Shown: piece after piece, positions 6,006-34,555 of the stretch
Layout of the letters: the number at the start of each line of letters is the position of its first letter
How positions within the stretch are numbered: the stretch's first letter is position 1
IMG/VR virus record: IMGVR_UViG_3300022699_000293
Location: 1 to 64,000 of that record
Reading direction: 5' to 3' (one strand)
Length of the DNA stretch: 64,000 nt
From: a virus
The notes under the pieces: model-generated
Told to the model about the DNA's origin: nothing
The model's input: only the letters and a program-made list of their open reading frames with translations
Database searches by the model: none
Position numbers and translations under genes: made by a program

Positions 6006-7433
6006 TTAGTAGAGAAAATTGTAATTTTGGTGGGAGCTATTAGGGTGGTAGGGGGACACAGTTTTTTCACACAAATTCAAATGACGGTATACTTGAAAAA
6101 CATCTTGAAGGGAAGATACGTTAAAATTCCATGGGAGAAATGTCTTGGCGGACCCCCAATAATAAGAAACGAAAAGGGAGCTTTCTTTATTTAATCTTTC
6201 AATATAGCGAAATGGATAACTTGTTGATCTCCATCCTTGACGCCGTGTAGGACTAAAGGAATGTGTTAATAGTTCTAGTAGGGTAGCTTTTATATTAACT
6301 GGAAGTCTAGTAGGATTTACTTGACAATTTTTTTGACTTGGTACGTAAGTGTCTAACCATTTTTTAGCGATTTTAAAATTAGTAGTGTAGCGTTTAAGTG
6401 GATATGCTTCAGAATGTATTGGTAAAAGTGCAAAAGCTAGTGTGTGAGGTTTTTTAGTAGAGGCAGGATGATACTGTAAAGATGCGACATATTTTCGTCG
6501 ATTTATTCGTTTTTCTAATACCCCACTATGAGTTAACAAGTATTGTATCTGCGCGTCTGTAAAAGGAACGTTTGCTTGTTTTATTACTTTTCTATTTAAT
6601 TGATTAGGAGTGTAAGGGTAGTATCCTGTACAGGACACAAGATCTGACGCGCATGCATCACAAGCAGATGGTTCAAACATAGCACAACGTGGGCAAATTT
6701 CTTTTTGAAGTAAATCGCGATTTTTTCGTGTTTGTGTTGCGGTTTTACGTTGATTTTTATTTTCAGGAATTTGGTGGAAGTCACAAAGTGTTACGTGGCG
6801 AATTGCTGCAGAAGCAGTTGTGTCTGACGTCATGCTTCCTCCTACAGCTACAAAATTTCCAATTTTGGTTTGGTTAAGTTTTACGTTGTCTAAAAAATCA
6901 TCGTAATCCCCGACGAGAGTGTAAGCTTCTTCTTGTAATCCTACTTGGCGTACAGGTAAACAAAGTTTAGAGGGATCCCAAGGTCTATCAAAGGATAATG
7001 CAGGACACTCAGAACAACCGTGTGTGTATTTTTCAGGCAAAGCGCATTCCTTATAAAACTCTTCTCCTTTTTTGGTAATAATTTTTTCTGGAGTTACGAC
7101 GGTTATAGGATAGTTAGAGCTTTCTGCTAATTTTTGTAGCATAAATTTGTTAGACAAGTAAGGAGTAGCTATTAAAGCATGGCGTAATAAAGCGTCATTT
7201 TGACGTGTGTAAAAATGTAAGTTTGAGTTTACTGTGTATTTAATCGGGAGTATTATGAAATACGGGCTTAGTAGTTTAGCTGTTAACGGGTGTTTAGCGA
7301 TGTCTGAATGGTGTGTTGATTCTTCTAAATTTAGAGGAGGAGATTCGCTATCTCCACTAAAAAGTAAACAAAGTGGTCCTTCTGATCCAGACACAAAGAA
7401 ACGGTTGAGCGAAGCGGGCACAAAGTATAACAT
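6006..7433 (-). CDS. Cysteine-rich protein encoded downstream of the reverse transcriptase, 475 aa
   Basis: Unrecognised protein, last gene of the reverse transcriptase operon. I place the start at 7433 because a GGAGGT ribosome binding site sits seven bases upstream; a GTG at 7460 overlapping the reverse transcriptase stop is the alternative and would add nine residues. It holds a cysteine group at about residues 130, 140, 143 and 158, and a denser one with CPRC (247, 250), CDAC (258, 261) and Cys 268, which looks like a zinc-binding module. The C-terminal half is basic and aromatic. Its fixed position behind the reverse transcriptase suggests a shared function, perhaps nucleic-acid or RNP binding, but no family is recognised. 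Confidence 0.72.
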   Translation of the reverse strand: MLYFVPASLNRFFVSGSEGPLCLLFSGDSESPPLNLEESTHHSDIAKHPLTAKLLSPYFIILPIKYTVNSNLHFYTRQNDALLRHALIATPYLSNKFMLQKLAESSNYPITVVTPEKIITKKGEEFYKECALPEKYTHGCSECPALSFDRPWDPSKLCLPVRQVGLQEEAYTLVGDYDDFLDNVKLNQTKIGNFVAVGGSMTSDTTASAAIRHVTLCDFHQIPENKNQRKTATQTRKNRDLLQKEICPRCAMFEPSACDACASDLVSCTGYYPYTPNQLNRKVIKQANVPFTDAQIQYLLTHSGVLEKRINRRKYVASLQYHPASTKKPHTLAFALLPIHSEAYPLKRYTTNFKIAKKWLDTYVPSQKNCQVNPTRLPVNIKATLLELLTHSFSPTRRQGWRSTSYPFRYIERLNKESSLFVSYYWGSAKTFLPWNFNVSSLQDVFQVYRHLNLCEKTVSPYHPNSSHQNYNFLY

Positions 7434-7456
7434 GCAAAAATACCTCCAATGATTTC

Positions 7457-8593
7457 TCACGTAGAAGATTTGTAACGCTCTAAAGCAAATTGAAATTCTT
7501 CTAATAGAGGGGCTCCTCGACGAGCATCGATTTGGTTGAAGATATTCAATTTACCGCGTAAATGTTGTATAAACTTTTCTGTAGATGTGTAGTTGGCACG
7601 ATGTGCTTGTTGCGGAATATCGGTGATAGCACAGTTGTGCACCATTGCTCGAAGTTTTTTATAGTCTGTTTTTGCAATGCTGGGCTTTTTATCGATAACT
7701 ATTCCCAACATACGTGTTCTGTGTTGCGGACCTGTAATTCTAGTTTTTCTAGGATTTACCCAGTATCCTGACTGGTTTACAAGATTCGTAATATCCTGGA
7801 TAATTGTTTTACGTTCACTTTTCGGATATTCGATACCGCAGGACAAAGTCAGATCGTCCGCATAGCGTCCATATACCCATTTAAAAGTTTCTTTAGATAT
7901 GTATTTATTCTTCTCGGATAAGTATTGAAGTATGCGTCGATCTAATTTCTGGTTGGCAACCAAGTTACAAATAGCTCCTGAAGTGGGGGCTCCCTGAGGT
8001 ATTCCTTCATGTGAAATTTTACGTGTTCTAGAATTGTGAATAGGTACAGTCATAAGGTTAGCTAACAAACCGCTAACGTAAAAAGAGTATCCTAAAGATT
8101 GAAAATAGTGTCGTATCCAAGCCCGGCGCGTGTTAGGAAAGAAATTTTTGAGATCCATTTGAATAAAAGTTCCTCTACGAGGACAATCATGTGTGTGGGG
8201 TGAGGGCATTTTAGCTGGAGGAGCATTGTCACAGACAGGACAGGGAGGTAAATGACGCAAAGCTGCGTCCTTGATAGAGTGCCCAGGACGATACGCTGTA
8301 ACATGGTTACCCAATTGTTCTTGCAAAGGATTTAAGATACGAGTGTTTATGCGCTTTAAAAAAGATTTCATTAAAGGTGTAGGGTCATGAAGTGTACGAA
8401 ATTTTCCCGGCGTTTTTTTAGGGATTTTCGAAATACGATACTGTTGGTTTTTGGTGGTAAGTAAATACCATAAAGTTTTAGTTCGATATCCCAGAAAGAA
8501 AGCTAAAGTACAGTCATCAATAATAAAGGGTGCCGGGGATTTTAAAGAAGGTATGGAGATAATATCTAACGTAGTATTTTTAAATCCTACCAT
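7457..8593 (-). CDS. Retron-like reverse transcriptase with a Cys/His insertion
   Basis: RNA-directed DNA polymerase of 378 residues. Visible motifs: an IPKK-x3-GKFRTL block (57-68); motif A with D147 in QMDLKNFFPN; motif B IPQGAPTSG (198-206); motif C YADD (244-247) followed by LTLS; then NPRKTR (280-285) and an RMLGIVI strand. Catalytic aspartates are intact. The QGAPTS and RYADDLTLS forms are those of retron and retron-like enzymes. The retron NAxxH signature is degenerate here (AALRH) and VTG is replaced by MLG. Between the N-terminal block and motif A an insertion carries C118, C121, H133, H135 and C137, a likely metal site. A GAGGAGG ribosome binding site lies in the end of the preceding gene, so there is no room for an adjacent msr-msd RNA. 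Confidence 0.93.
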   Translation of the reverse strand: MVGFKNTTLDIISIPSLKSPAPFIIDDCTLAFFLGYRTKTLWYLLTTKNQQYRISKIPKKTPGKFRTLHDPTPLMKSFLKRINTRILNPLQEQLGNHVTAYRPGHSIKDAALRHLPPCPVCDNAPPAKMPSPHTHDCPRRGTFIQMDLKNFFPNTRRAWIRHYFQSLGYSFYVSGLLANLMTVPIHNSRTRKISHEGIPQGAPTSGAICNLVANQKLDRRILQYLSEKNKYISKETFKWVYGRYADDLTLSCGIEYPKSERKTIIQDITNLVNQSGYWVNPRKTRITGPQHRTRMLGIVIDKKPSIAKTDYKKLRAMVHNCAITDIPQQAHRANYTSTEKFIQHLRGKLNIFNQIDARRGAPLLEEFQFALERYKSST

Positions 8594-9208
8594 TTATACC
8601 TCCTCGTTTTTTGAAAGGGAATTTAATGAAATAGTTAATTGCATGCTATCTCTACATATTGATCTACCAGGAGAACAGCCGTTAGCATAGTAACGGGACA
8701 TATGTTTGCATACCGCACATACAGCAGGGATATTTTTTTTCGGCGTATGTAGCGTGATTGCTGGGAGGTTTGTGTTTAGGTTGTGCAGGTCAATAATAAT
8801 TCTAGACAAGGAATAGGCTAATTGGGGAAAAGAACGGTTGGTTGTTTTATCTTTATTAAAAACAATATAAGTAGGAATAACCAGTAACCACTCATGGGGT
8901 GTTAAAGTAATATTTTTTCCTAACCCCTGATGTTCATAGCTTATATATTCGTACTCCAACAAGGTACTACGGGGAATAGTAATGTTTCGACGGTATTCTA
9001 AATTGAGCCCTTGTAGTGCATGATATAAGGAAGTTGAAAGAGGTGTAATTAAACTATGAGGAAACAAGGAAAACGCCATTTCTTGTTGCGAGGTAGGAAC
9101 CAAATAAACACGGTCAAAGGGGAAGTAATCAAAAGAATGCAGCGGATTATCTGCTTTCTTTTTTCTTAACCGTGTTTGGTGTATTTTTACGCAGTAAATT
9201 TGAGTCAT
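8594..9208 (-). CDS. Unknown protein upstream of the reverse transcriptase, C-terminal zinc knuckle
   Basis: Unrecognised 204-residue protein encoded immediately before the reverse transcriptase; its stop codon touches the next start and its last codons supply the downstream ribosome binding site, so the two are tightly coupled. Residues 1-150 are mixed and hydrophobic with no known motif. The C-terminal tail has C164, C167, C178 and C185, a plausible zinc-binding knuckle. It begins ten bases after the metallopeptidase/vWA gene ends, with an AAGGA ribosome binding site. It could be a reverse transcriptase accessory or template-binding factor; this is inference from context. Confidence 0.72.
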   Translation of the reverse strand: MTQIYCVKIHQTRLRKKKADNPLHSFDYFPFDRVYLVPTSQQEMAFSLFPHSLITPLSTSLYHALQGLNLEYRRNITIPRSTLLEYEYISYEHQGLGKNITLTPHEWLLVIPTYIVFNKDKTTNRSFPQLAYSLSRIIIDLHNLNTNLPAITLHTPKKNIPAVCAVCKHMSRYYANGCSPGRSICRDSMQLTISLNSLSKNEEV

Positions 9209-9218
9209 ACACGTTTCC

Positions 9219-10754
9219 TTAGTCGTCGATTTTTAAAACGATATCTCCCATATGCGCATTTTCTTTTCCGCTATTTGTAAGAATCCAGATAAAGGGACAA
9301 GGAGGTGTAAGTTCAGGCATTGGACCGCCTTGAGATGAGTGTACTGGAGCATATCCATCGGTAAAGTTTACAAACAAATCTGTGCGTGGGAGGGTGCGTG
9401 TCAAACGTTCTGCACCATTAACCCAATCTTCATCTTTGTCTAACTGCAACATACGTCTGAAAGGAGGACAAAAGTTTGTCCCACCATACCCATGACGTGT
9501 ACAATAATTTGTAATTTCTTCGTCAGCTTCAATTAAGAATTCTTTTTGTAATCCTGCGTCATACAATAATATTCGCGTAGTAACAGATTCGTTGCTTTTC
9601 ATTATTCCTTGAATCTCACTCATAAATTTGATGAAATCTTCGTCAGAAACAGACCCGGAAGTATCGATAGCTACAGTAATGAAAAAGCTAAAGTCCTTTT
9701 GCATACCAGGAAAAGGTTCGATTCCTTGGGATTGTCCTGTAGTCAGTATTCCCATGTGGGGCCAAGCCGTCGATTCTGCAAGTTTAGATGAGATACTGGA
9801 TTTCAAGAAATTACGAAGAATTTCGTACCAGGGTAGTGTCGGTTCTGACAAAAGATCATCAATAATGCCTTGTACAGATCCTGGGAGCGTACCTCGACTT
9901 TTATGTGTCTGTTGTGCGGCTTTCTTTGTTATGCGCTTAGCTTCTCGTTTGGCTCTATCTATAATGCGCTCTGCTTCTGCTTCGGTCATATGATCTAACA
10001 GATCTTCCCAACGAATATGTTGTGGCATGATACTACCGCGCACATCTTTAAGCCATTGAGGTGCTTGATTTACGGGTTGTGAAGATTTTTGATTTGTGTC
10101 TGGAGAGCTAGATTCTTTACCTTGTGCATTACCGTCTGAATTGGAACCATCTCCTTCAGAAGGAATAGGAATTCCGCTATCCACGAAGATAGGTGTTCCG
10201 TTTGCGTCAGTTTCTTGTTGGTAAGGTGAGTAGCTATCTGTTTCACATTTGTCTAGAAGTAAAGACAAGTATTCGTCAAAGGATTTACCTTCAGGGAAAT
10301 TGTAAGGATCATTTTCAGGAAACAGTAAAGTTTTGTGATGTTTTCGAAAATTAGAAAGTTCCATAAAGCTTCTTAAGGAAATGTCATTGGCAGCAAAATC
10401 CTGTGCCATATTTACGATTGGCATTAATTGTGCCCACTGGTATTCATGTTTGCAGAATTGTTTGTACCGCATCCCTCGGATTAAATGTTGTAATACGATG
10501 TGTGTAGCTTCGTGGATGACGACCAAGATACGCAAAGGAGTATCAATCGAACTAAAGAATTGAGGATCCCAAAGAAATTGATACTTACCTTCTTGCGTTA
10601 AGGATACAGCAGCGGTACCTAAGTTGTTAACGGCACGACGACCACAACCATTGAGCACGCGACCCCAAAAGTTGTTGCCTCCGCGAGGAGAACAGGCCCA
10701 TTGAAGCACTTGTGAAAGTGCTTTTTCAGGGTCATCATTAGTGTTGCTTTGCAT
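9219..10754 (-). CDS. Metallopeptidase-like/vWA domain protein, partner of the MoxR ATPase
   Basis: This 511-residue protein combines an N-terminal zinc metallopeptidase-like domain (HEATH at 81-85, the HExxH pattern) with a C-terminal von Willebrand A-like domain bearing the metal-binding motif DTSGS near residue 364. A low-complexity Ser/Asn/Gln linker lies between them. Proteins of this build (DUF2201/vWA-like) are commonly paired with MoxR AAA ATPases, and such an ATPase lies at 12931-14166. Such pairs are thought to act as chaperones that remodel or insert metal into client proteins. The start at 10754 is chosen for its GGAGG site; an upstream start is less likely. It heads the operon containing the reverse transcriptase. 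Confidence 0.85.
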   Translation of the reverse strand: MQSNTNDDPEKALSQVLQWACSPRGGNNFWGRVLNGCGRRAVNNLGTAAVSLTQEGKYQFLWDPQFFSSIDTPLRILVVIHEATHIVLQHLIRGMRYKQFCKHEYQWAQLMPIVNMAQDFAANDISLRSFMELSNFRKHHKTLLFPENDPYNFPEGKSFDEYLSLLLDKCETDSYSPYQQETDANGTPIFVDSGIPIPSEGDGSNSDGNAQGKESSSPDTNQKSSQPVNQAPQWLKDVRGSIMPQHIRWEDLLDHMTEAEAERIIDRAKREAKRITKKAAQQTHKSRGTLPGSVQGIIDDLLSEPTLPWYEILRNFLKSSISSKLAESTAWPHMGILTTGQSQGIEPFPGMQKDFSFFITVAIDTSGSVSDEDFIKFMSEIQGIMKSNESVTTRILLYDAGLQKEFLIEADEEITNYCTRHGYGGTNFCPPFRRMLQLDKDEDWVNGAERLTRTLPRTDLFVNFTDGYAPVHSSQGGPMPELTPPCPFIWILTNSGKENAHMGDIVLKIDD

Positions 10755-10765
10755 TCTTTTTCCTC

Positions 10766-10774
10766 CTATAATGT
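10766..10774 (+). promoter_or_regulatory. Candidate promoter -10 box for the 10805 gene
   Basis: The sequence CTATAATGT, with TATAAT at 10767-10772, sits 32 bases before the plus-strand ATG. The identical nine bases occur upstream of the gene at 56987. A weak TTGCTT lies 17 bases upstream. The box shares the short divergent gap with the start of the minus-strand metallopeptidase/vWA gene. Confidence 0.4.
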
Positions 10775-10804
10775 GATTGAGAAACAAGAAAGAGGTGTAT
10801 TCTC

Positions 10805-11809
10805 ATGTCTACGTACTATGACCAAACATGCGATCCCGGATATTCTTACTTACGTGTGCTTGTTGAACGTTACCCCAAATTAGGGGAGTTTACGAAAACA
10901 GCGAATATTGATGAAAATGAATTTTCGCAATTACCTGATTCAGCGTTTGCTTGGTCTAGTGAACGTCGGTATCCCATACATACAAAAGAACATGCAGCTC
11001 TTTCATTAGGATATCAAAAATTAGCTAACGCAAAACTTCCTATGGAAGTGGAGCAGAAGTTAAAAACTGCTGCACAAGTTTATGGAATTTACGAAGAATT
11101 ATATGAAGAGAATGTTCCAAAAGTGGCAGAAAATTCGACATACATATTCCCAGAAAAAAAGAGGTTTATGATTAAAACAGCGGAAGATATTAAATTAGCT
11201 GAACGTCGTTTACGAGAAATTTATCGGCAATTATCTGTAGAAGACCGTGCAGAAGGATTTCAACGCTTACACAAATATGCAAAACAATTTGGAGTTACCT
11301 TACATCCTTCTACCGAAAAACTTGCTGGATTTACGCTTACAAGTACGCAACGTTTGCGTGATTGGCTAGATGCGCGACAAGAAGTAACTCGAGGACAAGT
11401 TTTTAGTAAGGCATTTGAAAAAATTTCTAGCACTTTAGAAGGCGTAGCTCCTGAATTTAAAGATTCAGACATACAAGTATCTTTAGTTAAGGCGATACAT
11501 ACTTTAGACAAAGAAGCAGGTTTAGAAAAACTTTATGGTGATAAGTTACCAGACCCTATCCAAACAGTTTTTAATACGGAGAAGCGTGCTGAAGATTCTG
11601 TAGAAATAGGTACAGGTTTTTTAGCGGATAAAGGAAAATTATCTGCTGTACCTTTATCGTTTTGGGAAGATGTGTTAGGTAAAGACGTAGTTGCTGAAAT
11701 TTCTCCGGATAATGAAACTGTGGATTTGGATATGTTAATGCAAATACTTCCAACGTTACCAGACGACTTAAAAGCTATCGTACAAAAACAATTAGCTGCT
11801 TATTTTTGA
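10805..11809 (+). CDS. Unknown protein, probable virion component, 334 aa
   Basis: Unrecognised, largely helical 334-residue protein. It has no cysteine cluster apart from a single early Cys, and no catalytic motif. It contains a TEKLAG segment about half-way and other EK-hydrophobic-A/S tetrapeptides of the kind repeated in the head and tail proteins further along. This links it to the structural set despite its position among minus-strand genes. The next gene starts by overlap with its stop (TGATG), so the two are co-expressed. A TATAAT box and an AAGAGG ribosome binding site precede it. A structural role is inferred. Confidence 0.7.
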   Translation: MSTYYDQTCDPGYSYLRVLVERYPKLGEFTKTANIDENEFSQLPDSAFAWSSERRYPIHTKEHAALSLGYQKLANAKLPMEVEQKLKTAAQVYGIYEELYEENVPKVAENSTYIFPEKKRFMIKTAEDIKLAERRLREIYRQLSVEDRAEGFQRLHKYAKQFGVTLHPSTEKLAGFTLTSTQRLRDWLDARQEVTRGQVFSKAFEKISSTLEGVAPEFKDSDIQVSLVKAIHTLDKEAGLEKLYGDKLPDPIQTVFNTEKRAEDSVEIGTGFLADKGKLSAVPLSFWEDVLGKDVVAEISPDNETVDLDMLMQILPTLPDDLKAIVQKQLAAYF

Positions 11810-12558
11810 TGTCCACGTATCTAACAAAATTAGCTGAGTACGTTTCTGCGATTCCTGATATTGTTGGCGATACCAGTCCAACAGCTGCAAAAGTATTTTT
11901 GCGCGACAGGTGTGATGATAATCGCTGCGCTGCTGTTTTGTATACAGCAACTCGTTGTGGTTATGGATTTGAAGTGCTTTCTTGGGAACCAGAAACGTTA
12001 TGGTTGGCTATGGAAAAAGATAACATTGATTTGAGCATAGTCTGTAGAGATAAGTTACAAGCGGCTTTAGCGTTAAACATTAATCCTCAGTATTATTGGG
12101 ATTCCATAGTTTTTGAGAATACTGTTCAAGCTTTTGAAGGAAATATAAGTGACTGGGAAACTATACAAGAATGTCACCCAGTAGAGATGGCGCGGACAGT
12201 GTACGAAGCTGAAATTATTAGAGGGATGGACCCTGAAGGAAAAGGGGACGCAGAATACGATGAGGACGTACAGCAGTATACTGCAGTTTGTTTAGATCGT
12301 GCCGGGTACGTAGTAGCTCCAAAACAACTACAATACGCAGATAAAAATTTAGAAAAGTTGCTACCCTCTACCGCACAATCCCTGAGAACTAAGATGAAAA
12401 AAAAGTGGGACAAGTTGAATAAGGAAAATCTCGAAACTGAAGTATTCGAAGAATCTCCCTTAGGTATCAACTTGTCCCGCTTAGCAGGCATTTATTTGGC
12501 CGTAGAGGACCATGCGAAATCTATAGGGCAAGATTTTTTGACGTTCAAGGAAGTTTGA
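11809..12558 (+). CDS. Unknown protein, probable virion component, 249 aa
   Basis: Unrecognised 249-residue protein. The ATG at 11809 overlaps the stop of the preceding gene, which fixes the start. The N-terminus TKLAEY resembles segments in several structural proteins of the main head cluster. The middle is acidic and rich in Trp and Tyr; the end is helical. The last 14 bases overlap the convergent gene at 12545, so no terminator fits between them. No family is recognised. Confidence 0.7.
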   Translation: MSTYLTKLAEYVSAIPDIVGDTSPTAAKVFLRDRCDDNRCAAVLYTATRCGYGFEVLSWEPETLWLAMEKDNIDLSIVCRDKLQAALALNINPQYYWDSIVFENTVQAFEGNISDWETIQECHPVEMARTVYEAEIIRGMDPEGKGDAEYDEDVQQYTAVCLDRAGYVVAPKQLQYADKNLEKLLPSTAQSLRTKMKKKWDKLNKENLETEVFEESPLGINLSRLAGIYLAVEDHAKSIGQDFLTFKEV

Positions 12559-12931
12559 ATTCAGGGGAAATTTCTAGCTGTCGACTTTGGTCAAAAATTC
12601 TTTCACGATCTGTAAGTACGTTAATATCTATCCACAAATCATATTCTTGCAACGTAAGAGATAGCTTTTCCCAATAAGGTTCTTTTGAATATTTGAGGGC
12701 AAGGGGGTGCAATGCTCTTTGTACGTAGATTCGATCATGTACGGGAAGAGCGTACAACAACGCTATGAAATCCATAGCTACATCATCTATAGGAGGCGTT
12801 TCCAGAAACATTTCTTTCAAAACCTTTAAAGTTTGGTACCGCCATTCGTCACTTTTACCATTACATTCTACTGGGGTACAATTCTGACATTCTTTGTGTA
12901 ATTGTACTGTGTGTTGTTGGAGATGTGTCAT
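12545..12931 (-). CDS. Unknown small protein coupled to the MoxR ATPase gene, 128 aa
   Basis: Unrecognised 128-residue protein. Its start overlaps the MoxR stop (TAATG), so it is translated with the ATPase and probably works with it or the metallopeptidase/vWA protein. The N-terminal part has an ECQNCTPVEC segment with three closely spaced cysteines, a possible metal site. The remainder is helical and acidic with several Trp and Tyr residues. Its 3' end runs 14 bases into the convergent plus-strand gene. No further function can be read from the sequence. Confidence 0.65.
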   Translation of the reverse strand: MTHLQQHTVQLHKECQNCTPVECNGKSDEWRYQTLKVLKEMFLETPPIDDVAMDFIALLYALPVHDRIYVQRALHPLALKYSKEPYWEKLSLTLQEYDLWIDINVLTDRERIFDQSRQLEISPEFKLP

Positions 12932-14166
12932 TATTTATCTCCTCGCAAATCTTGCTCTATCTTAATCTGGCTGTCGTCTAACTGTGTGTGAATTTTAGTC
13001 CACACTTCATGTTCTTGGACTTTGCTGGTCAGCTCAAACAAGTACGGTATTGCTTGATTCTCTTCAGCATACTTTTTCAATTGTGACAAAACAGTAACCT
13101 GTAATTCGTTAGGTAGGTCTGCTAAGTATAAAACCAAGTTACGAGCAGCTTGGGTAACCTCAGGTTGCAAACTGAAAAGATACGTAAGAACGTTTAAGTT
13201 TAGTTCTGTGATTTTTTCGTGTTCTGATTTTTCTAATAGCAAACGTACAGGACGTTGTCCTTTTTCTTCATAATTAAGCAGTACGTCTTCAGCTTTTACA
13301 GCTGTACGATTATCTTTTAAATGCTCTACCAGTTGTTGTGCAGAAGCCATTCCTATCGACGCAGCATAACGACAAAGTGCGAAATCATCGTTAATTGGTT
13401 TTCCAGCTTTTTCTAAGAGGTAGACATCAAGAGATATGGTTTGGACTGTTGCGGGGCACATATATTGTTTGTTTTGTTGTTGTGCTTTTTTATCATACAG
13501 CATCTTAGGGTATTGTGTAACAAAGTTAAGAACTTCTGGGTGGCATGGTCGAGGTTCTCCCAATGCTAATACGTCACTTTCATGAAAACGAGAGCTAGAT
13601 GCGTGGTTCAACCAATCTTTAAAAGATTCTACAGCGTAGAACCATTTCAAACGTCTACGCAATGCCGCGTTATTTTCAATTTGTGTAACCATGTATTGTG
13701 CGGTGGCTGGATTCATGAGAGCAACTACAATTGCCTCGTCTGGAAGGACATAATTGAACATTCGCCTGTCTTCGACTAACGAGAAGAACATAGCAATGCT
13801 GTGTTGAAGACCTTGGTTGATTTCTTCAAACAGCATTATAGCTTTTTCTCCTTGTTTTGGAAAAACAGACGGAACCAGCAAATCAAAATATCCTTCAGGA
13901 GCATCTCTGGTACTAGGGATTCCAGTACCGACTAAGCCGTAATGGGCGGTACGGATATCGTAAATCGAGGCGTTTTCATCTTTTGCAATCTGGGCAACGA
14001 TTTGCGATTTGCCGATACCTGCTTCACCAACAACGCAAATAGCTCCGCGATGTTGCTTCTGTTCCCAGCTTAATTTGATTTGCTCCTGAATTTCACTAAT
14101 TCTCAAACTGGGAATGTCGTACTTTGCTGCGTAAGGTAGGTGTTTGCTGTCTTGTTTTTTTCCCAT
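12931..14166 (-). CDS. MoxR-family AAA ATPase
   Basis: AAA+ ATPase of 411 residues. The Walker A motif GEAGIGKS is at 47-54, the Walker B LFEEIN near 115, a sensor-1 asparagine in ALMNPAT near 150, and an arginine-rich ALRRRLKWF segment follows as the finger region. The C-terminal half is helical and less conserved. The closest family is MoxR, whose members act with vWA proteins; such a partner is at 9219-10754, separated only by a plus-strand island. Its start lies 20 bases from the divergent terminase start, so its promoter must overlap that gene or lie within the gap. An AAAGGT site precedes the ATG. Confidence 0.85.
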   Translation of the reverse strand: MGKKQDSKHLPYAAKYDIPSLRISEIQEQIKLSWEQKQHRGAICVVGEAGIGKSQIVAQIAKDENASIYDIRTAHYGLVGTGIPSTRDAPEGYFDLLVPSVFPKQGEKAIMLFEEINQGLQHSIAMFFSLVEDRRMFNYVLPDEAIVVALMNPATAQYMVTQIENNAALRRRLKWFYAVESFKDWLNHASSSRFHESDVLALGEPRPCHPEVLNFVTQYPKMLYDKKAQQQNKQYMCPATVQTISLDVYLLEKAGKPINDDFALCRYAASIGMASAQQLVEHLKDNRTAVKAEDVLLNYEEKGQRPVRLLLEKSEHEKITELNLNVLTYLFSLQPEVTQAARNLVLYLADLPNELQVTVLSQLKKYAEENQAIPYLFELTSKVQEHEVWTKIHTQLDDSQIKIEQDLRGDK

Positions 14167-14186
14167 TTGCGTGTTACCTTTCGTTT

Positions 14187-15791
14187 ATGACACAGATAGG
14201 TAAAACCCCACTCAGTATAGTTACAGAGTCTTGGATTGTGTTGGATGGTCAACCTTTTCGTTTAGATGATTGGCCTATGCATCGAGCATTCTATGATGGG
14301 CGGTACCAACGTACGTTATTTAAAACAAGTCGCCAAGTAGCCAAGTCTACAACGTTAGCTAATTTTTCTATCATCGAATGTAGTCTTATACCACACTTCT
14401 CAACCATGTTTGTCAGTCCTTCTAAAGAGCAAACTACGCGTTTTTCTAATACACGAGTGGGTAAAACTATGAGGTATTCTCCAATTATCCACGATAATTA
14501 TTTACGTACGGATTTAGCTGATAGGGTATTTCATAAGCAATTCACTAACGGTAGTGAAATGTTATTTACTTATGCTTGCGATGATGCAGAACGTTTACGT
14601 GGACCCTCAGTCGATAGAGCTATGTACGACGAGGTGCAAGATATTTTATATGATCCTGTAATCACAGTAGGGAATGAAACAATGGCTAATTCTGATTATG
14701 CTTATGAAACATACGCAGGAACGCCAAAAACGATGGAAAATACTATTCAATATTTGTGGGAAAACTCAACACAAACAGAATGGGTGATGCGCTGTGAAAA
14801 ATGTAATAAATTAGTTTTTATAGATAATGAAAAAGCTGTAGGCAAATATGGACCTATTTGTACAAATTGTGGAGGGTATTTAAATCCTTACTTAGGACAG
14901 TGGGTTGATATGGCTCCAAATAAACCAATACAAGGATTTCATATCAGCCAATTAATGATGCCCGTCAACGTACCGCATGCGGTTAGATCAGCAGGTAAAT
15001 CCACAGACATAATAGAACAATCTGAAAAGCGTTGGGAGAGGATCGTCCAGAAATACGAAGATCCCAATAACACACTTTCTGTATTTCGTAATGAAGTTCT
15101 CGGAGTTTCTGATGAGATCGGTACTAGGTTAATTTCACAAGAAGAGTTAGAAGCTCTTTGTACCGGACGACCAACCGTAACATATCCTGAGCCTAAGGAT
15201 TTACAAGGATTCTCACAAATTGTAGCGGGTGCGGATTGGTCTGGTGGCGGTACTACGGGAGTTTCGAGAACAGTGTTATGGATTTGGGGTTGGAGACCGA
15301 CAGACCAAAAGCTAGTTTGTCTGTTCTATAAAGTTTACCCAAGTACAAACCCTGTTTCAGTTGTTACTGAAATTGGAGAAATATGTAAACAATACCGGGT
15401 ATCTTTATTTTGTGGTGATGCGGGCGAAGGTGCGTTACCGAATGATACTATGCGACAACATTTGGGCCATCATCGAGTAATTCAAGTACAGTATGGTACT
15501 CAAGCTAAAGCTTTAAAATTCAATCAAGTAGATCGCTATACTGCAGATAGGACCACATTGATAGATAATTACATGATGTTATTGAAACAGAAAAAAGTAG
15601 AATTTGGGCCGTTGTCTGAGATGCGTCTCGCTATTAGTGATATTTTAAATGAATACGAAGACATCACACAAAACGATAGAAAAGTATGGCGGCATTCTCC
15701 GCAGAAACCCGATGATTGTTTGCATGCAGGATTGTTTGGGTGGATTGCTTGGAAGGTAGTAAACAAAGATTTAAAATTTTGGCAGGAATAA
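14187..15791 (+). CDS. Terminase large subunit
   Basis: Packaging motor and nuclease that translocates phage DNA into the prohead through the portal. The 534-residue protein has an ATPase domain with a deviant Walker A, KTSRQVAKST (46-55), and Walker B MYDEVQD (about 145). A zinc-ribbon pair CEKC/CTNC (about 202-230) follows, as in GpA-like terminases. The RNase H-like nuclease has GADWSGGG (about 348), GDAGEG (about 410) and a final DDCLHA (about 509). The start at 14187 gives the MTQIGK N-terminus; a longer frame would overlap the divergent MoxR gene. No small terminase is recognised beside it. It stands alone as a plus-strand gene and is followed by a structured intergenic region. Confidence 0.92.
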   Translation: MTQIGKTPLSIVTESWIVLDGQPFRLDDWPMHRAFYDGRYQRTLFKTSRQVAKSTTLANFSIIECSLIPHFSTMFVSPSKEQTTRFSNTRVGKTMRYSPIIHDNYLRTDLADRVFHKQFTNGSEMLFTYACDDAERLRGPSVDRAMYDEVQDILYDPVITVGNETMANSDYAYETYAGTPKTMENTIQYLWENSTQTEWVMRCEKCNKLVFIDNEKAVGKYGPICTNCGGYLNPYLGQWVDMAPNKPIQGFHISQLMMPVNVPHAVRSAGKSTDIIEQSEKRWERIVQKYEDPNNTLSVFRNEVLGVSDEIGTRLISQEELEALCTGRPTVTYPEPKDLQGFSQIVAGADWSGGGTTGVSRTVLWIWGWRPTDQKLVCLFYKVYPSTNPVSVVTEIGEICKQYRVSLFCGDAGEGALPNDTMRQHLGHHRVIQVQYGTQAKALKFNQVDRYTADRTTLIDNYMMLLKQKKVEFGPLSEMRLAISDILNEYEDITQNDRKVWRHSPQKPDDCLHAGLFGWIAWKVVNKDLKFWQE

Positions 15792-15796
15792 GAAAC

Positions 15797-15950
15797 ACAT
15801 ACACTGCTTGATTTGGTACGTTAGTTGAAGGGGAGAACAACTAATGGACCAAAACTAATCTTTAATTTTTAAAGCTATAAAGTACGTAACGTACTTTTTA
15901 AAAAATGCTATCTGGGGGGAAATAAAATAACATGGTAATCCAGTGTATGT
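15797..15950. ncRNA. Structured intergenic region, possible non-coding RNA
   Basis: The 165-base gap between convergent terminase and polymerase genes contains no supported gene. It is bounded by a perfect 10-base inverted repeat (ACATACACTG at 15797-15806 and its complement at 15941-15950). Inside are a stem-loop at 15815-15850 whose ten-base loop is AAGGGGAGAA, and an AT-rich palindrome at 15879-15897. A closing helix that encloses hairpins could be a folded RNA of about 154 bases on either strand, or a pair of terminators. Only base pairing supports it. Confidence 0.35.
15879..15903. terminator. AT-rich palindrome, possible bidirectional terminator
   Basis: AAAGTACGT is followed after one base by its complement ACGTACTTT, then by a run of T and A residues. 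It lies between the convergent terminase and DNA polymerase genes, where a bidirectional terminator is expected. The stem is GC-poor, so termination strength is uncertain. Confidence 0.4.
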
Positions 15951-15956
15951 TTTTTT

Positions 15957-18950
15957 TTAACTTACGCTATTAAGTAATTCATCCTGAATTTCTTGGTTAA
16001 GAAAATCATCTTTTTCATCTGTTATTATACCGTATTGCTGTTTTCCTTGAAGATACTTATCCACATCATCAAGTTGCCCGTATGAAGGCCCCACTTCTAC
16101 ATCCCAGAGAAGAGGGACAGGTAACCACGAATGGCGTTCCTGAACTTGTTTTACGCCGTAATCATAGATAAAATCTGGAAGTTGTGATGCGTATTTTTTT
16201 GGAATTTCGGCAACAAGAGAGTCGTGTACAGTTATTAGTAAGTGGCCACCAAAGTCATGACGAATAGGTTCGTCGACAGCGGTAAGTACCTCCAAAATAA
16301 TATCAGATGAAGTACTTTGAATAAGCATATTAATTGCTTGACGTTCAGCTTTTCTGCGCATTTTAAACGTCATATTGCCTGTATCAAGTCGGCGTCGACG
16401 TCCGAAAAAGGTTTCAACAACTCCCAGGTATCTAACTTTTTCTTTTGTTTGATCGATGTACTTGCTTATAGTAGGAAATCTTTCAAACAACGAATCAACT
16501 ATAAGCTTGCCCTGAGATTCTGGGATACCTACAATAGATGCTATTTTTCTGGGAGATGCTCCGTATAAAATTCCAAAAACTACTCGCTTAATATTGCTGC
16601 GCAGTTTACCAAGACGTTTTCCATAAGCGACATCAGGTCCAGGTTCCTTGTCTGTTCCTGTAAAGTAACTTCGTTTTTGAAAATCTTCGTAACTCCAACT
16701 ATGTTGGTCATCGATTCCTACAGTACGTAACAATGCTTGTTTTTCTTCTTTAGAAGAAAGATGTTTTGTTAAGGTGTCGGGATTTAAAATGTTAGCTGAA
16801 AAATAACTATGAGGATCTAAACCATCATTGAGAGCTTCTATGAGATTTTTATCCCGACTGTATGCAGCATACAAACGTACTTCAGCAGCTTTAGCATCAG
16901 CATTAACGATAATTTCTGTATCAGGATTAGTAGGAATAAAAGCTCGCTTTAAATTATGCTCCCCTATTGTCATGGGAATATTTTGCATATTTTCATCAAC
17001 AGAACTAAGGCGACCTGTAGCAGTTCCGTGAATATTGAAAGTAGTATGCATTTTCCCATCTTCTTCACTTAGGACTAAAATATTTTCTATAAATGTATCT
17101 CTGGCTTTTGACAACGCACGATATTCTAATAAAGCGTTAGCAAAAGCACACTCGTAATGGTTTTTTAATGTTCGTAAAAATTTAGCATTTGTAGAGATAA
17201 ACCCTGTAGGAGTGTGTGGGATATCTTCTTCAGGTATCGTACCTTTGTAGCAAACAGTCTCCCCGGTTACCGGATGTTTATACCCCGTAGAGAATAATAA
17301 ACGTCGTAATTGAGACACGCTTTTGGGATTGAAATTCTCACTCAAAGCACCCTTGGGAATCATGTGCAACAAGTTAATTTTATGGTGTCGTAGAGACTTA
17401 TCCATGTCTTGAGCAAGACTTGTAACGTAAGGTCTATCTACGCGCATACCCCATGCTTCCATTTGTGCGAGGGTGCGCGAAACCGGAAGAACATGGTGTT
17501 TCATCAAATCGTTTAAGGGGAATGCAGAATTAGGATTTCCTGGACGTGCCAATTTTTTAAAATAGGCGCTTCCTCCTAACATACTACGTTGCTTATTGAT
17601 TTTTTCTTGTTCTGTAATTATTCTTTTCTTTTGAATAAACGTTAAATTTCTAGTTGCGTCTGCATCGATAGCTCCGTACACATTCAATTTTTTAAGAGGA
17701 ACCATTGCAAATCCGCAATCCGTTACTAATTTTTTCTTAGTTCCTTTGAGATCCGCCGACTTAACATCTAATTTTTTTAACAGTTCTTTTTTATGTTTGG
17801 TTACGTAAGTTTGGGTTTCTTCTTCGTAACCTGCGTATTTAGGAATAAACATTTGTACTAATGTTTTTAAACCGTAGTGTCCTTTTTTAGCTTCGGCTAA
17901 TAAGTGTTCTCCTAGCATCGTATCCCACACTACGTTACGTACATCCCAACCTTTACTCCACAAAATTCTAAGATCGTATTTGGCGTTATGAAATGTTTTA
18001 GGCTTGTTACACGTAAGTAATTGTTGGATATACGGAGCTATTTCTGATAGTTCAAAAGGACTATCTTCATGTTCTATAGGGATGGATGCTGCAAGCCCGG
18101 GACCCCAAGAAACTACAAGAGATAAAATTTTAGTTTTTGATCTGTGAGGGAAAAGAGTATTGGTCTCAGTATCTAAAGCAATTAAGTGTTTTGCGGGATT
18201 TAACCCATCTCTGTGTTTGTACTCTATTATTTCTTCAACTAATTCTTTTACTTGCTTGGTAGTTTTAGGAAACCTATAGTCCTTAGCAATTACGTCCGGA
18301 GGTAGTGTTATTTGTAATGCTTTCCCTTGCTTAGCTTCTGTAACCAATTCTAAAAATTGAAGTGCATGTCTGTGCATAATACTGTAATGGTCGGGAGAAG
18401 CAAGTAACTGCCGTTTAGAGATAGTAGGCATAATAACAAAACGTCGGTTATATAAAGTTAATTCTATAGGTTGTCCAATTAACTTTTTATATCCTTTTAC
18501 TTTATAACCTAAAGATTGGAGTACTGCAGGACCTATCGCAAAAACCATGATCGGTCGAGGTGGAGGAAAAGCAGTTTTCATAATTTCTGGATGTAAAAAA
18601 TCAGCACAAGCCTTCACCATTTTGATGTTAGGCTTGTCTTCAGCACAACGTATTGCGTAGGTGTAACAAGAATTCAACTTAGAATATTTTTTTTCTTTTT
18701 GTAATTTAGTGAATAAATTACGTATTAACCTTTCGATATCAGCATTCCAAGGAGTATGTTGTTCTACATTTTCAGAAATTCCGGAAAAAGTTGGAGATTC
18801 GGATATGCAATAAAAGTCTACAGGTTGTGTAGAATCAATGAAAAGACTGTGAAAGTAATGTTTTTGTCGATAGTTAGGACATTTAGAACAATTGGGTCCT
18901 TGCCATGCGTTATCTAATCTACATAAGTTACATTCAGAAACAGCTATCAT
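15957..18950 (-). CDS. Family A DNA polymerase with 3'-5' exonuclease and N-terminal UDG-like domain
   Basis: Replicative polymerase of 997 residues in three parts. The N-terminal domain (about 1-220) resembles uracil-DNA glycosylase-like domains seen on some phage polymerases: C7, C10, C21 and C24, an ISESPTF loop, and an AIGPAVLQSLG segment. The usual final HP motif is replaced, so activity is doubtful. A DnaQ-like exonuclease starts with DTE near 258 and has a FHNAKYDL segment. The polymerase has motif A DAKAAEVR (about 685), motif B with K, FG and YG (about 785) and motif C VHDS (about 909), where the usual Glu is Ser. The start at 18950, one base after the primase-helicase stop, is chosen over 18980; GGGAG precedes it. 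Confidence 0.92.
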   Translation of the reverse strand: MIAVSECNLCRLDNAWQGPNCSKCPNYRQKHYFHSLFIDSTQPVDFYCISESPTFSGISENVEQHTPWNADIERLIRNLFTKLQKEKKYSKLNSCYTYAIRCAEDKPNIKMVKACADFLHPEIMKTAFPPPRPIMVFAIGPAVLQSLGYKVKGYKKLIGQPIELTLYNRRFVIMPTISKRQLLASPDHYSIMHRHALQFLELVTEAKQGKALQITLPPDVIAKDYRFPKTTKQVKELVEEIIEYKHRDGLNPAKHLIALDTETNTLFPHRSKTKILSLVVSWGPGLAASIPIEHEDSPFELSEIAPYIQQLLTCNKPKTFHNAKYDLRILWSKGWDVRNVVWDTMLGEHLLAEAKKGHYGLKTLVQMFIPKYAGYEEETQTYVTKHKKELLKKLDVKSADLKGTKKKLVTDCGFAMVPLKKLNVYGAIDADATRNLTFIQKKRIITEQEKINKQRSMLGGSAYFKKLARPGNPNSAFPLNDLMKHHVLPVSRTLAQMEAWGMRVDRPYVTSLAQDMDKSLRHHKINLLHMIPKGALSENFNPKSVSQLRRLLFSTGYKHPVTGETVCYKGTIPEEDIPHTPTGFISTNAKFLRTLKNHYECAFANALLEYRALSKARDTFIENILVLSEEDGKMHTTFNIHGTATGRLSSVDENMQNIPMTIGEHNLKRAFIPTNPDTEIIVNADAKAAEVRLYAAYSRDKNLIEALNDGLDPHSYFSANILNPDTLTKHLSSKEEKQALLRTVGIDDQHSWSYEDFQKRSYFTGTDKEPGPDVAYGKRLGKLRSNIKRVVFGILYGASPRKIASIVGIPESQGKLIVDSLFERFPTISKYIDQTKEKVRYLGVVETFFGRRRRLDTGNMTFKMRRKAERQAINMLIQSTSSDIILEVLTAVDEPIRHDFGGHLLITVHDSLVAEIPKKYASQLPDFIYDYGVKQVQERHSWLPVPLLWDVEVGPSYGQLDDVDKYLQGKQQYGIITDEKDDFLNQEIQDELLNSVS

Positions 18951-18951
18951 G

Positions 18952-21900
18952 TTACTCCCATTCTTCATATTGCTTATCAAGCTCTTCTACATTGTAAATT
19001 TCTGTGTCTTCTTTATTGTTTGTTACGTGTGGAACTGTTGAAGGTTTTTGTGCATCTTCGTTCAGCCAGGAACCTGGACGGAATACAATCACATCTTCGA
19101 CAGTCAAACTACCTCCCATATACGGACGAGCACGTTCTAAGATACCTAATTTGCGTATAGCGTCAGGTTTTAAAGCTAAATAGTGACGTTCTAAAACGTC
19201 CCTAACACGTATTTTGGACGCTCGTGCCATTTGGTGGTCTCGTGGAATCAATGCAGGTATAGCTTGACTTAAAAACATTAAAAGATGTTTAGTGACAGAA
19301 TCAAAGTATAAACCACAGGTTTGCGTGTTGATTTCTTCCCTCGTATTTGCATTTCCTAAAATTGCTCCAGCTGACGTTTTTCTCTTTTGGTCAAACAGAT
19401 ACAAGTCACCAAAACTGAGCATATCTTTAAATAAGGATTCAGACTCATTAATGGAAGCTGCTCTATGGATTGTTGTTGCGTTACGTGCCACAAACTTGCG
19501 TAAGAATGCTTGCCAATCATGTCCTAGATATTTAAGAAAAGCCAACACCCCAAATAAGGATGAAGCATATCTCCACTCAATTTTGAATGGAAGCATTGAG
19601 TTTAATTTAGGGAATTGTTGTTTTATTTCGGTGTAATGTTTTAAAATCTCAGGTACTCGAGGATACAAAGCTATTGTAACTTGTCGTGCAAGTTGTTGTA
19701 CGCCTTCTATACCTAAGTTTTTAAGGATAATGTTCTCGGGGCTGTCTCGAGCTTCTGTCTTGTTCATCTCTATGATAAGCATTCGGTTAAGGTCTTGGGG
19801 TCGTTCCGCTCCAGCAATACCTGCCAACATAACAGACATTCCTAAGTAAGCTGCGCGGTATCCTTGACCATCTTTACGTCCTACAACGCGTCGAGATTGT
19901 CCTGTGACAATACCTCGAAGTACTTCTAAAATTTGGATACAATGGTCTCGTTTTTGTCCATCTAACTCGAATTCATCCAAGGCAAGCATCCGTGTATCGC
20001 GGTCAGTAGAATACACAATGCCTGGTTTTGTGTAGTCGTCGATTCCTTGAGAACTGAGGTTTAGGCGAATAGTAGGAACTTGGATACCCCCAAAAATTGA
20101 TAATAGATTCGACTTACCTGAAGATGTTTCGCCGGTGATAAACATGAACATTTGGCGATCAAAAGTATTCATGATGGGCATCAACAATAATTGTGCAGCC
20201 AAAAATCGAGGCATTACTTCATGTGCTGTAAACCGAAAAGCTGTATCAAAAAGTTGTTCTAGTTGCTGGAATAAATTACTTACGTCTAGGTCGGAAGCAG
20301 AATACAAGATTTCTGGAGATAGTCTTCCAGGAAACCAAGGACGTGTATCTTCGTTAGGAGACGTAAAACCTACATCAAACAGTATTCCTTTGTGAGCAGG
20401 GCCTTCCAAGCGTCTATAATTGGGGGTTCCCGAGTCAGAACGATCAAAATAGATCACATCTTTACCGCAAACTACGTACTCATCAGCTTTCCCGTCTTTT
20501 TTGGGAATGTAGTGGTAACCCTGCCGTAAACGTCGAGTTTCTGAGATATCAGGAATACCTTTAGCTAAATCAAGGCAAGCTTCTTTTAGATAATATCTAA
20601 TATTGAGATCCGTGCGTCTCCGACTTTGACCTTCCAATGTTTCTGGATCCTCCAGGAATGAAGGAAAACCTACTTCTTCTCGAATAAATTGAAGAAGATT
20701 TCCTGTCGTAGGAGCCAATTCTTGTGCGATAGCTTGTTCACTATCAAGACGAATTTGACGGTATTCCCGCTCTTTTTTCGCGTACATAAGAAGGGCACGA
20801 TTAGAAGTTTCTCTATTGGTGGCTAAAATCGAAAAGTGATCTTTTAGAGCGTCTGTACATCGTAAAATAAATCCCGACTCGGTATCTTCGCTAGAAGCAA
20901 TTTCTCTTTTCAAAATAGGAACAGAAATTTCATTATAAGTTCGGGACAATTCTATAGAATACTTCTCAATATCGTGACGATGTTTTAAGCAACCTCCAAT
21001 ATCTGCTGCAATTTCTACCATGTTTCTGTAGTCTTGATTGGATGCTTTGCTAATTGCTTCTGTAGCTAATGTCACAGCCCATTGCCAAGAAGGTATGAAA
21101 TTTGATTCAACATTTTTCCAAAGACTATCTTCTATTTTTTGTAAACCATGCTGAAGAATAGCTTCGTCAATATCTCCCGAAGAACCTAATTTATCCCACC
21201 CTACAAATATCCGCGTTTGCAATTCGCGAATTTTGTGTAACCAAAAACGAACTACAACATCCCCTCCTGCTTTACCTTTGTAAGGAGAGTCTCCTATAAG
21301 ATATGCGCCGCTAAATCCTGTAGCTTTGAAAATAGGCTCTACATGCGCGGATCCTCCCTTACCCCCCACAGAAAATAAGGGAAATTTAGGCCCACCAGCT
21401 CTTAGCGATTGTGCCATGTAAGTCATGACATCCATCTCGCCTTCTGTAAGGTACGCCCAACTACTTTTTTGGGAATCAAGTAATGATTGATAATGTTGCC
21501 AACCTAGCCCAAAAATACCTAGCAAATCTTCAAAATCATCAGAAGGAAATATGTAATCTTTTTGTGCCTTACTGTGAGGAGCGCGAATTTTGAGTCTTCC
21601 AATTTCGTCAGGAGTCACATGTAGCGGCCAGATTATACCGCCCAATGTAAAAGGTGTATTAAATGAATCTGCCAAATAATCTATAGCTGGATTAGCTACG
21701 TTTTCTGGAGGTGTGATGTTTCGAACCGTGGCTTTTTCCCATGCTTTGTAAGCGCGGTTATAATCGTTTTCAATTAAATTGCCGAGATCTGCTAAAGGAG
21801 GTACAATCCCTACAGGTAAAGCGTAAAGAGTATCCACGGGTAATTGTCGTTCATTGAGCATCCAGTTTAATGCATCTTTGGCAAAAGGATATTTGTCAGG

Positions 21901-33763: not shown

Positions 33764-34333
33764 ATGGTTAAGGACACACGACAAGATTCAACTTTTGCAA
33801 CTTTGGTTCAATCAGCAAGAGACAAACCTCCTCGCATGTCTCAAGAAACAGAGATTCCTTCTTTATTTTCGCCACCATCCGACGATTCTTCAAAAGATTC
33901 GTTTGTAGCTAAAGAATTAACAAACAATAAACCTGGACGACAAATACGTCTTGTAAGTTTTACGCGTACTTTTGTATTGTGGCGTCCTTGGGAAAAATGT
34001 TCTCGATGTTTGGAAATGTTAAAACAGGGAGAAATAGAATTACCTTCAATAGGGGATATGACTTGCCCCCATGTACAGCTTGCGGAGTATAAAGAAATTA
34101 AAGATGCTGTTCTCAGAGGTGACGGTATTAAAGAATTTGAAGAATACTTTCAATTACATGACGGTACTCGATGTGTTCAATTTTCTTGGTTGGAAGCTGA
34201 TCCAGAATTTTTAGAAAAAATGAAAAAAGAAGCTCAAAAAAACAAGGATAGCGTGTACCCACCAAACCCTGAAAAAGTTTTTAACCAAAAAGAGGAGGAG
34301 ACTCCGAATAATGATTCTGAAGTCTCCTCCTGA
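33764..34333 (+). CDS. Unknown protein with cysteine motif, 189 aa
   Basis: Unrecognised 189-residue protein just behind the portal gene. The first 60 residues and the last 40 are charged or Pro/Ser-rich and probably disordered. The central part has WEKCSRC and a later MTCPH, which together could bind zinc, then an acidic helical segment. The end of its coding region overlaps the first hairpin of the structured RNA at 34294. A structural or packaging role beside the portal is inferred from position. Confidence 0.65.
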   Translation: MVKDTRQDSTFATLVQSARDKPPRMSQETEIPSLFSPPSDDSSKDSFVAKELTNNKPGRQIRLVSFTRTFVLWRPWEKCSRCLEMLKQGEIELPSIGDMTCPHVQLAEYKEIKDAVLRGDGIKEFEEYFQLHDGTRCVQFSWLEADPEFLEKMKKEAQKNKDSVYPPNPEKVFNQKEEETPNNDSEVSS

Positions 34334-34483
34334 CGGTTCTGGGGTGAGTTTGTCGACGGTTCTTAGGGATTTTTCAGACTACTTAAATAGTCTGAAGAAT
34401 TCCCACAGGAGTTCGACAATCACCCCAGGCTTTTCGCCAGCATTCCCATTTTTATCCTCCTTGTAAAAAGCCGTCTACCGTCA
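34294..34483 (+). ncRNA. Predicted structured non-coding RNA with three-way junction
   Basis: The 222 bases between the 33764 gene and the RNA polymerase gene hold no gene but strong base pairing. Hairpin A pairs GGAGGAGACT (34294-34303) with 34321-34330. P1 pairs TGACGGT (34331-34337) with 34477-34483. P2 pairs 34339-34347 with 34420-34428 (9 bp) and 34350-34356 with 34413-34419 (7 bp), then after an internal loop 34366-34381 with 34388-34404 (16 bp, one bulge, six-base loop). P3 pairs GGCTTTT (34428-34434) with 34466-34472; its first base competes with P2. P1, P2 and P3 meet in a three-way junction. No T-run follows P2, so a simple terminator is unlikely. It could be a leader element of the polymerase gene or an independent RNA. 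Confidence 0.6.
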
Positions 34484-34555
34484 TCTTCTTTTACCAAAAT
34501 GTCTTTTCGAATCTGAAAGAATGTTCTATACTTGAACCGTTCAGAAGGAGAGCAA

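Follow-up and report, generated by a model that had tools for sequence, protein, structure and literature searches.

What does a reverse transcriptase (RT) do in a phage genome where it sits in a tight operon, next to no recognisable template RNA? The window analysed here is a stretch of 64,000 nt, positions 1 to 64,000 of the 87,130-bp virus record IMGVR_UViG_3300022699_000293. Running from 10754 down to 6006, its minus strand carries four nearly gapless genes in the order VWA, P2, RT, P3 (Table 1), with spacers of 10, 0 and 23 bp between successive genes, and the tight coupling and gene limits originally predicted are all correct. The first gene product matches Pfam DUF2201_N and DUF2201 (E 1e-12) and the third matches Pfam RVT_1 (E 6e-22), with the canonical motifs A, B and C intact, as had been read from the window; this is the single RT gene of the whole 87,130-bp record.

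Table 1. Coordinates in the window of the operon, its sequence motifs and its constant upstream neighbour.
Feature	Coordinates	Strand	Basis
Metallopeptidase/VWA protein of 511 aa, opening the unit	9219..10754	-	Pfam DUF2201_N + DUF2201, synteny
P2, partner protein of 204 aa without a known family	8594..9208	-	orthologues in 38 lineages
P2 Cys4 cluster C164-x2-C167-x10-C178-x6-C185 (CxxC...CxPGxxxC)	8654..8719	-	18/18 aligned P2
RNA hairpin within the 5' coding part of P2	9107..9177	-	synonymous-codon shuffles, z -5.4
RT (378 aa) with intact motifs A, B and C	7457..8593	-	RVT_1, alignments, trees
Cys/His insert C118-C121-H135-C137 of the RT, after region X and before motif A	8183..8242	-	alignment
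RT region X (retron NAxxH position), AALRH	8252..8266	-	alignment
RT catalytic motif C, YADD	7853..7864	-	alignment
RT region Y (retron VTG position), MLG	7703..7711	-	alignment
P3, partner protein of 475 aa without a known family	6006..7433	-	orthologues in relatives
P3 first Cys4 cluster C130-C140-C143-C158	6960..7046	-	17/17 aligned P3
P3 second Cys4 cluster C247-C250-C256-C268	6630..6695	-	C247, C250, C268 invariant, C256 in at least 90%
MoxR-like AAA ATPase, constant upstream neighbour with the VWA gene	12931..14166	-	synteny; Walker-type by sequence

Is this arrangement peculiar to one phage? The VWA–P2–RT–P3 unit recurs, with gene order and neighbourhood unchanged, across 38 distinct phage lineages (defined as RT clusters at 90% identity, window included), with RT identity falling to 25%, and this conservation excludes a product of chance. 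The VWA gene is a constant neighbour, syntenic in all relatives; a search with this gene alone returned three of them, each with P2, RT and P3 downstream, and more relatives were recruited with RT and terminase alignments. In a terminase-anchored survey, where contigs were chosen by their terminase (52-80% identity) and which thus avoids selection by the RT itself, the operon was present in 22/22 contigs spanning the site, by hand count from the table. A scan with the 18-member RT alignment returned 49 viral loci, 47 of which show the order AAA, VWA, P2, RT with shared neighbours. P3 was detected by profile in nearly all of these viral loci: it went undetected in L269, where the contig ends early, in L278, where it probably does so too, and in L276 and L277, the most divergent members. 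For distant members, a rule was used to assign start codons. RT alignments succeeded as queries in IMG/VR, the P3 alignment was too variable to serve as one, and IMG/VR scans with the single sequences P0001 and P0003 gave no match. Amongst 20 more distant phage records (34 to 204 kb, terminase about 30-39%) an RT of this kind was found in none, a search that we consider valid because the same query recovered known members.

The predicted linkage of the 204-aa and 475-aa genes with the RT is therefore kept in other phages, and P2, RT and P3 are inherited together as a vertical core module; as viral records are fragmentary, this core status holds for the site and not for whole genomes. The clade has large genomes, with records of up to 198 kb. 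No known RT family was found to carry the same accessory genes: at 80 cellular RT loci neither P2 nor P3 was present, bar one (L097), whose contig is identical with that of phage L012. This 78,677-bp contig (QMZE01000001.1) lies within a GTDB Archaeoglobales MAG, a placement that may reflect wrong binning, because the contig has bacterial-type genes (RNA polymerase, and tmRNA in its kin).

From which stock did such an RT arise? In our trees, which were built without Abi, UG or CRISPR RTs, all phage RTs form one clade (support 100 with 18 members, 96 with 38) that joins the retron RTs in a superclade (99-100), apart from DGR and group II RTs. Against these three families the proposed retron-like placement stands in so far as the phage RTs are retron-related; a position inside or as sister to the retrons is not distinguished, since constraining the cellular retrons together cost only 1.2 log units (AU test, p 0.463). 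Model scores agree in being highest, moderately and about equally, for retron models (RT_III-A 183 and RT_XIII 182 bits; outgroup 170), whereas the closest cellular RTs reach 400 to 540 bits with the model of their own type. A group II intron was considered and set aside: its RTs occupy a different clade of the tree, and there is no Rfam intron match in the window.

The residues by which retron RTs are recognised tell a similar story of kinship and departure. We compared the 38 phage RTs with 81 retron-like RTs in one alignment, the latter being the nearest retron relatives and not all retrons. The Asn of region X (NAxxH) is found in 0/38 phage RTs versus 76/81 retron-like RTs, and the His of the same region in 37/38 versus 81/81; in region Y (VTG), Thr occurs in 0/38 versus 78/81, all 38 phage RTs having Leu (xLG), and the Gly is retained in all phage and retron-like RTs aligned. 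The degeneracy of both signatures, first read from the window, is thus common to all the phage RTs. Region Y is needed to bind the cognate msr, and with region X deleted the msr is still bound and msDNA synthesis stopped (PMC6868368). In published retrons at large VTG occurs in 47% and NAxxH in 59%, and region X has Asn in 62% and His in 100% (PMC4244168), so that both signatures are more frequent in our 81-RT sample than in retrons at large. The catalytic aspartates are conserved (D147 and D246 in 38/38, D247 in 37/38), as is motif B; that these residues persist amongst RTs only 25-50% identical speaks for catalysis. One member, L260, has YRDD as motif C in an otherwise intact operon. The Cys/His insert noticed before motif A is real in the window RT and is not universal, as it occurs in 26/38 phage RTs (and in 0/81 retron-like RTs).

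What the two partner proteins do is harder to say. Neither P2 nor P3 has a match in Pfam, PHROGs, NCBIfam or PADLOC, their profiles found nothing amongst PDB sequences, and their AlphaFold models (mean pLDDT 76 and 77) matched no PDB fold, nor did that of P3 match a fold in BFVD; the two are unrelated to each other, and no relatives are detectable outside the phage clade. The Cys/His clusters that had been noted in RT, P2 and P3 proved real, being invariant in alignments of 17-18 phages with C256 nearly so. In these alignments identity to the window is 16-38% for P2 and 17-28% for P3 versus 39-53% for the RT, and the fast divergence of P2 and P3 beside a slow RT would fit contact with a changing partner. 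As their models match no fold, nucleic-acid binding by P2 and P3 is a guess from the Cys clusters.

Where, then, could a template be encoded? Cellular relatives of the RT have at least 100 nt of non-coding sequence upstream of the RT in 65/70 cases (median 458), whereas in 37/38 phages the P2 and RT genes overlap or directly adjoin; the sole upstream gap of at least 100 nt, of 256 nt in L261, is occupied by an extra ORF. This agrees with the original prediction that the operon leaves no intergenic space for an msr-msd, and neither an msr-msd nor a template repeat was found close by: an Rfam scan gave no match at the operon or in the window, and self-BLAST of the 87,130-bp record gave no pair of template and variable repeats (TR/VR), as had been expected. 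The description of an unusual retron-like RT, with degenerate signatures, no adjacent msr-msd and no DGR repeats, is accordingly upheld. Comparison of conserved noncoding gaps over 87 kb with four relatives revealed none that is msr-msd-like. The best conserved gap (34334-34531) was tried as a candidate for an RNA acting in trans and rejected, as it holds a short antisense gene and a terminator upstream of an RNA polymerase gene. An msr-msd embedded in the coding sequence was likewise rejected from Rfam, synonymous conservation and folding z-scores (synonymous-codon shuffles of all operon genes in 18 phages), the search yielding a subclade hairpin that is not clade-wide; synonymous sites of RT, P2 and P3 lie at background, with an observed/expected third-position likeness of 1.06-1.09 by codon usage. 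Since sequence alone cannot identify a template or a cDNA, the suggested use of a trans-encoded RNA or a host transcript stays conditional.

We tentatively favour, with somewhat less than even confidence, an RT–P2–P3 module that is core to a broad clade of tailed phages, derives from retron-like stock and uses a non-classical template, most likely as a ribonucleoprotein. The RT has lost the region X Asn and the VTG Thr, the latter in region Y, by which retron RTs are directed to their msr. An ancestral retron-type RT would have lost its msr-msd as well. Perhaps P2 and P3, with their Cys clusters (and the zinc-finger-like insert of the RT in most members), took over the recognition of RNA or DNA, and the RT would make cDNA from something other than an adjacent msr-msd, for example a transcript of the phage or an RNA from another locus. 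Being a vertical core and not an accessory island, the module probably works for the phage's own cycle, in genome replication, gene expression or the blocking of host defences, and is not a recently acquired anti-phage retron; we infer that RT, P2 and P3 form a complex in which P2 and P3 bind nucleic acid, and that its cDNA benefits the phage. We give a smaller, though still appreciable, chance to a broader formulation: a distinct phage RT class that split from retron stock, with an obligate RT–P2–P3 combination lacking an msr-msd, which would synthesise cDNA on transcripts of phage or host, or with no template at all, in an essential step of the phage life cycle.

Could this nonetheless be an ordinary phage-borne retron, with its msr-msd elsewhere in the phage and P2 and/or P3 as a toxic effector in superinfection exclusion? 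The likeness is considerable: the RT shares the fold and motifs of retron RTs, falls in their superclade and scores best to their models (nearest RT types XIII and III-A in PADLOC), it keeps the region X His and the region Y Gly, and it belongs to a small operon with partner genes. Retrons are, moreover, known in viruses, three cold-seep viruses having been described with them (PMC10504277). However, the VTG Thr and the NAxxH Asn are both lost in 38/38 phage RTs, the canonical msr-msd site next to the RT is without space in any member, and most phage RTs have the Cys/His insert. P2 and P3 match no known effector family, and the module is core and vertical, unlike defence genes with their patchy, sporadic distribution; against the RT_XIII model the window RT reaches 182 bits, where related type XIII retrons come to about 500. 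We therefore regard an ordinary retron as unlikely.

More doubtful is DNA synthesis that is untemplated or protein-primed, as AbiK-type RTs perform it, with nucleotides added to a protein (P2, P3 or the RT) or to DNA or RNA ends. That no route led to a template gene would suit this idea, as would two obligate partner proteins, and defence-type RTs of the UG/DRT/Abi groups can indeed act with partners. The RT is, however, not of these types: Drt2 (27.1 bits, cut-off 390), AbiA (19.8, cut-off 250) and Drt3a (14.8, cut-off 200) all stay at or below 27 bits, against about 180 for the retron models.

Perhaps the template lies within the operon's own mRNA, for instance in the hairpin at the 5' end of P2? 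In the window, L002 and L004, the first 34 codons of P2 contain, at the same site, a hairpin more stable than any of 300 synonymous-codon shuffles (z of -5.4, -4.3 and -5.2, respectively), and three of its pairs have changed on both sides with pairing kept. A second strong hairpin stands at the start of P3 in L002 (z -6.2) and L004 (z -5.4; about 13480-13560), with stems of about 20 pairs and differing sequences; a further one occurs at P3 in L022. On the other hand, the P2 hairpin is weaker in L026, L012, L034 and L043 and is undetected in roughly half of the 18 phages, its RNAalifold covariation term is about zero, and synonymous sites are unconstrained clade-wide. Similar hairpins also occur elsewhere in the genome, 11/1619 windows reaching z <= -4 in this phage and 16/1785 in a relative. 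We consider an mRNA template improbable, and treat the P2 hairpin as a local RNA element.

A non-catalytic RT, acting in RNA binding or as a scaffold, would suit L278, in which motif C reads YSDN and the region X His is also missing while the operon is otherwise intact; it is very improbable for the clade, given the near-invariant aspartates and motif B described above. A diversity-generating retroelement with a divergent RT can be all but dismissed: phage DGRs (e.g. BPP-1 brt) also link a phage RT to other phage genes, and here there are two accessory genes and a P3 that differs in one block between near-identical phages, but the tree separates the RT from DGR RTs (99-100), the 87-kb record has no TR/VR pair, and the variation is not adenine-specific. 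The near-identical phages concerned (L014, L015 and L016) show dense blocks of differences in RT (8243-8907) and P3 (9936-10311), with further blocks outside the operon; as these are mostly synonymous, third-position transitions, they look like recombination with a relative.

The place of the preferred module amongst phage RTs also bears on its significance. Phage retrons and DGRs are accessory parts. Here, by contrast, an entire clade of phages, with large genomes and a multisubunit RNA polymerase of its own, appears to have the RT as a hallmark gene, and in the open-licence literature we found no report of an RT in such a role. Group II introns, which have been reported in phages (PMC12350094), likewise place an RT within a phage genome; the module differs from them in its RT clade, its lack of an Rfam intron match, its partner genes and its constant position. 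If cDNA is made, a group of DNA phages would use reverse transcription in its normal cycle, something not seen before. That the msr-recognition signature and the RNA gene are both lost amounts to a sharp natural experiment on the need of retron RTs for their RNA, and RTs without a fixed template are of interest as tools.

Several other features of these phages deserve mention. The multisubunit RNA polymerase genes lie in the region of 34532-38917 (+), 38918-40507 (+) and 40509-42305 (+) of the window: a 1461-aa protein joins beta domains to the start of beta-prime, a separate 598-aa protein supplies a beta-prime part, and between the RNA polymerase genes lies a LigD-type primase-polymerase plus 3'-phosphoesterase-like gene. 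Upstream, the minus strand of 34281-34531 holds a tiny Shine-Dalgarno-led frame, some 14-18 codons long, for a hydrophobic peptide, and a hairpin resembling an intrinsic terminator, adjoining a shared TTCTTaTACCA-like element; frame and hairpin recur in relatives despite different sequences. In one relative (G048), the RNA polymerase orthologue L237 contains one in-frame TGA and one TAG within its matched part. Beyond the window, the record encodes a tmRNA and at least 13 tRNAs (L200:9685-10071 and 10395-19074; record 73685-83074), and a 115-bp imperfect palindrome with arms 77% alike lies at L200:19819-19933 (record 83819-83933).
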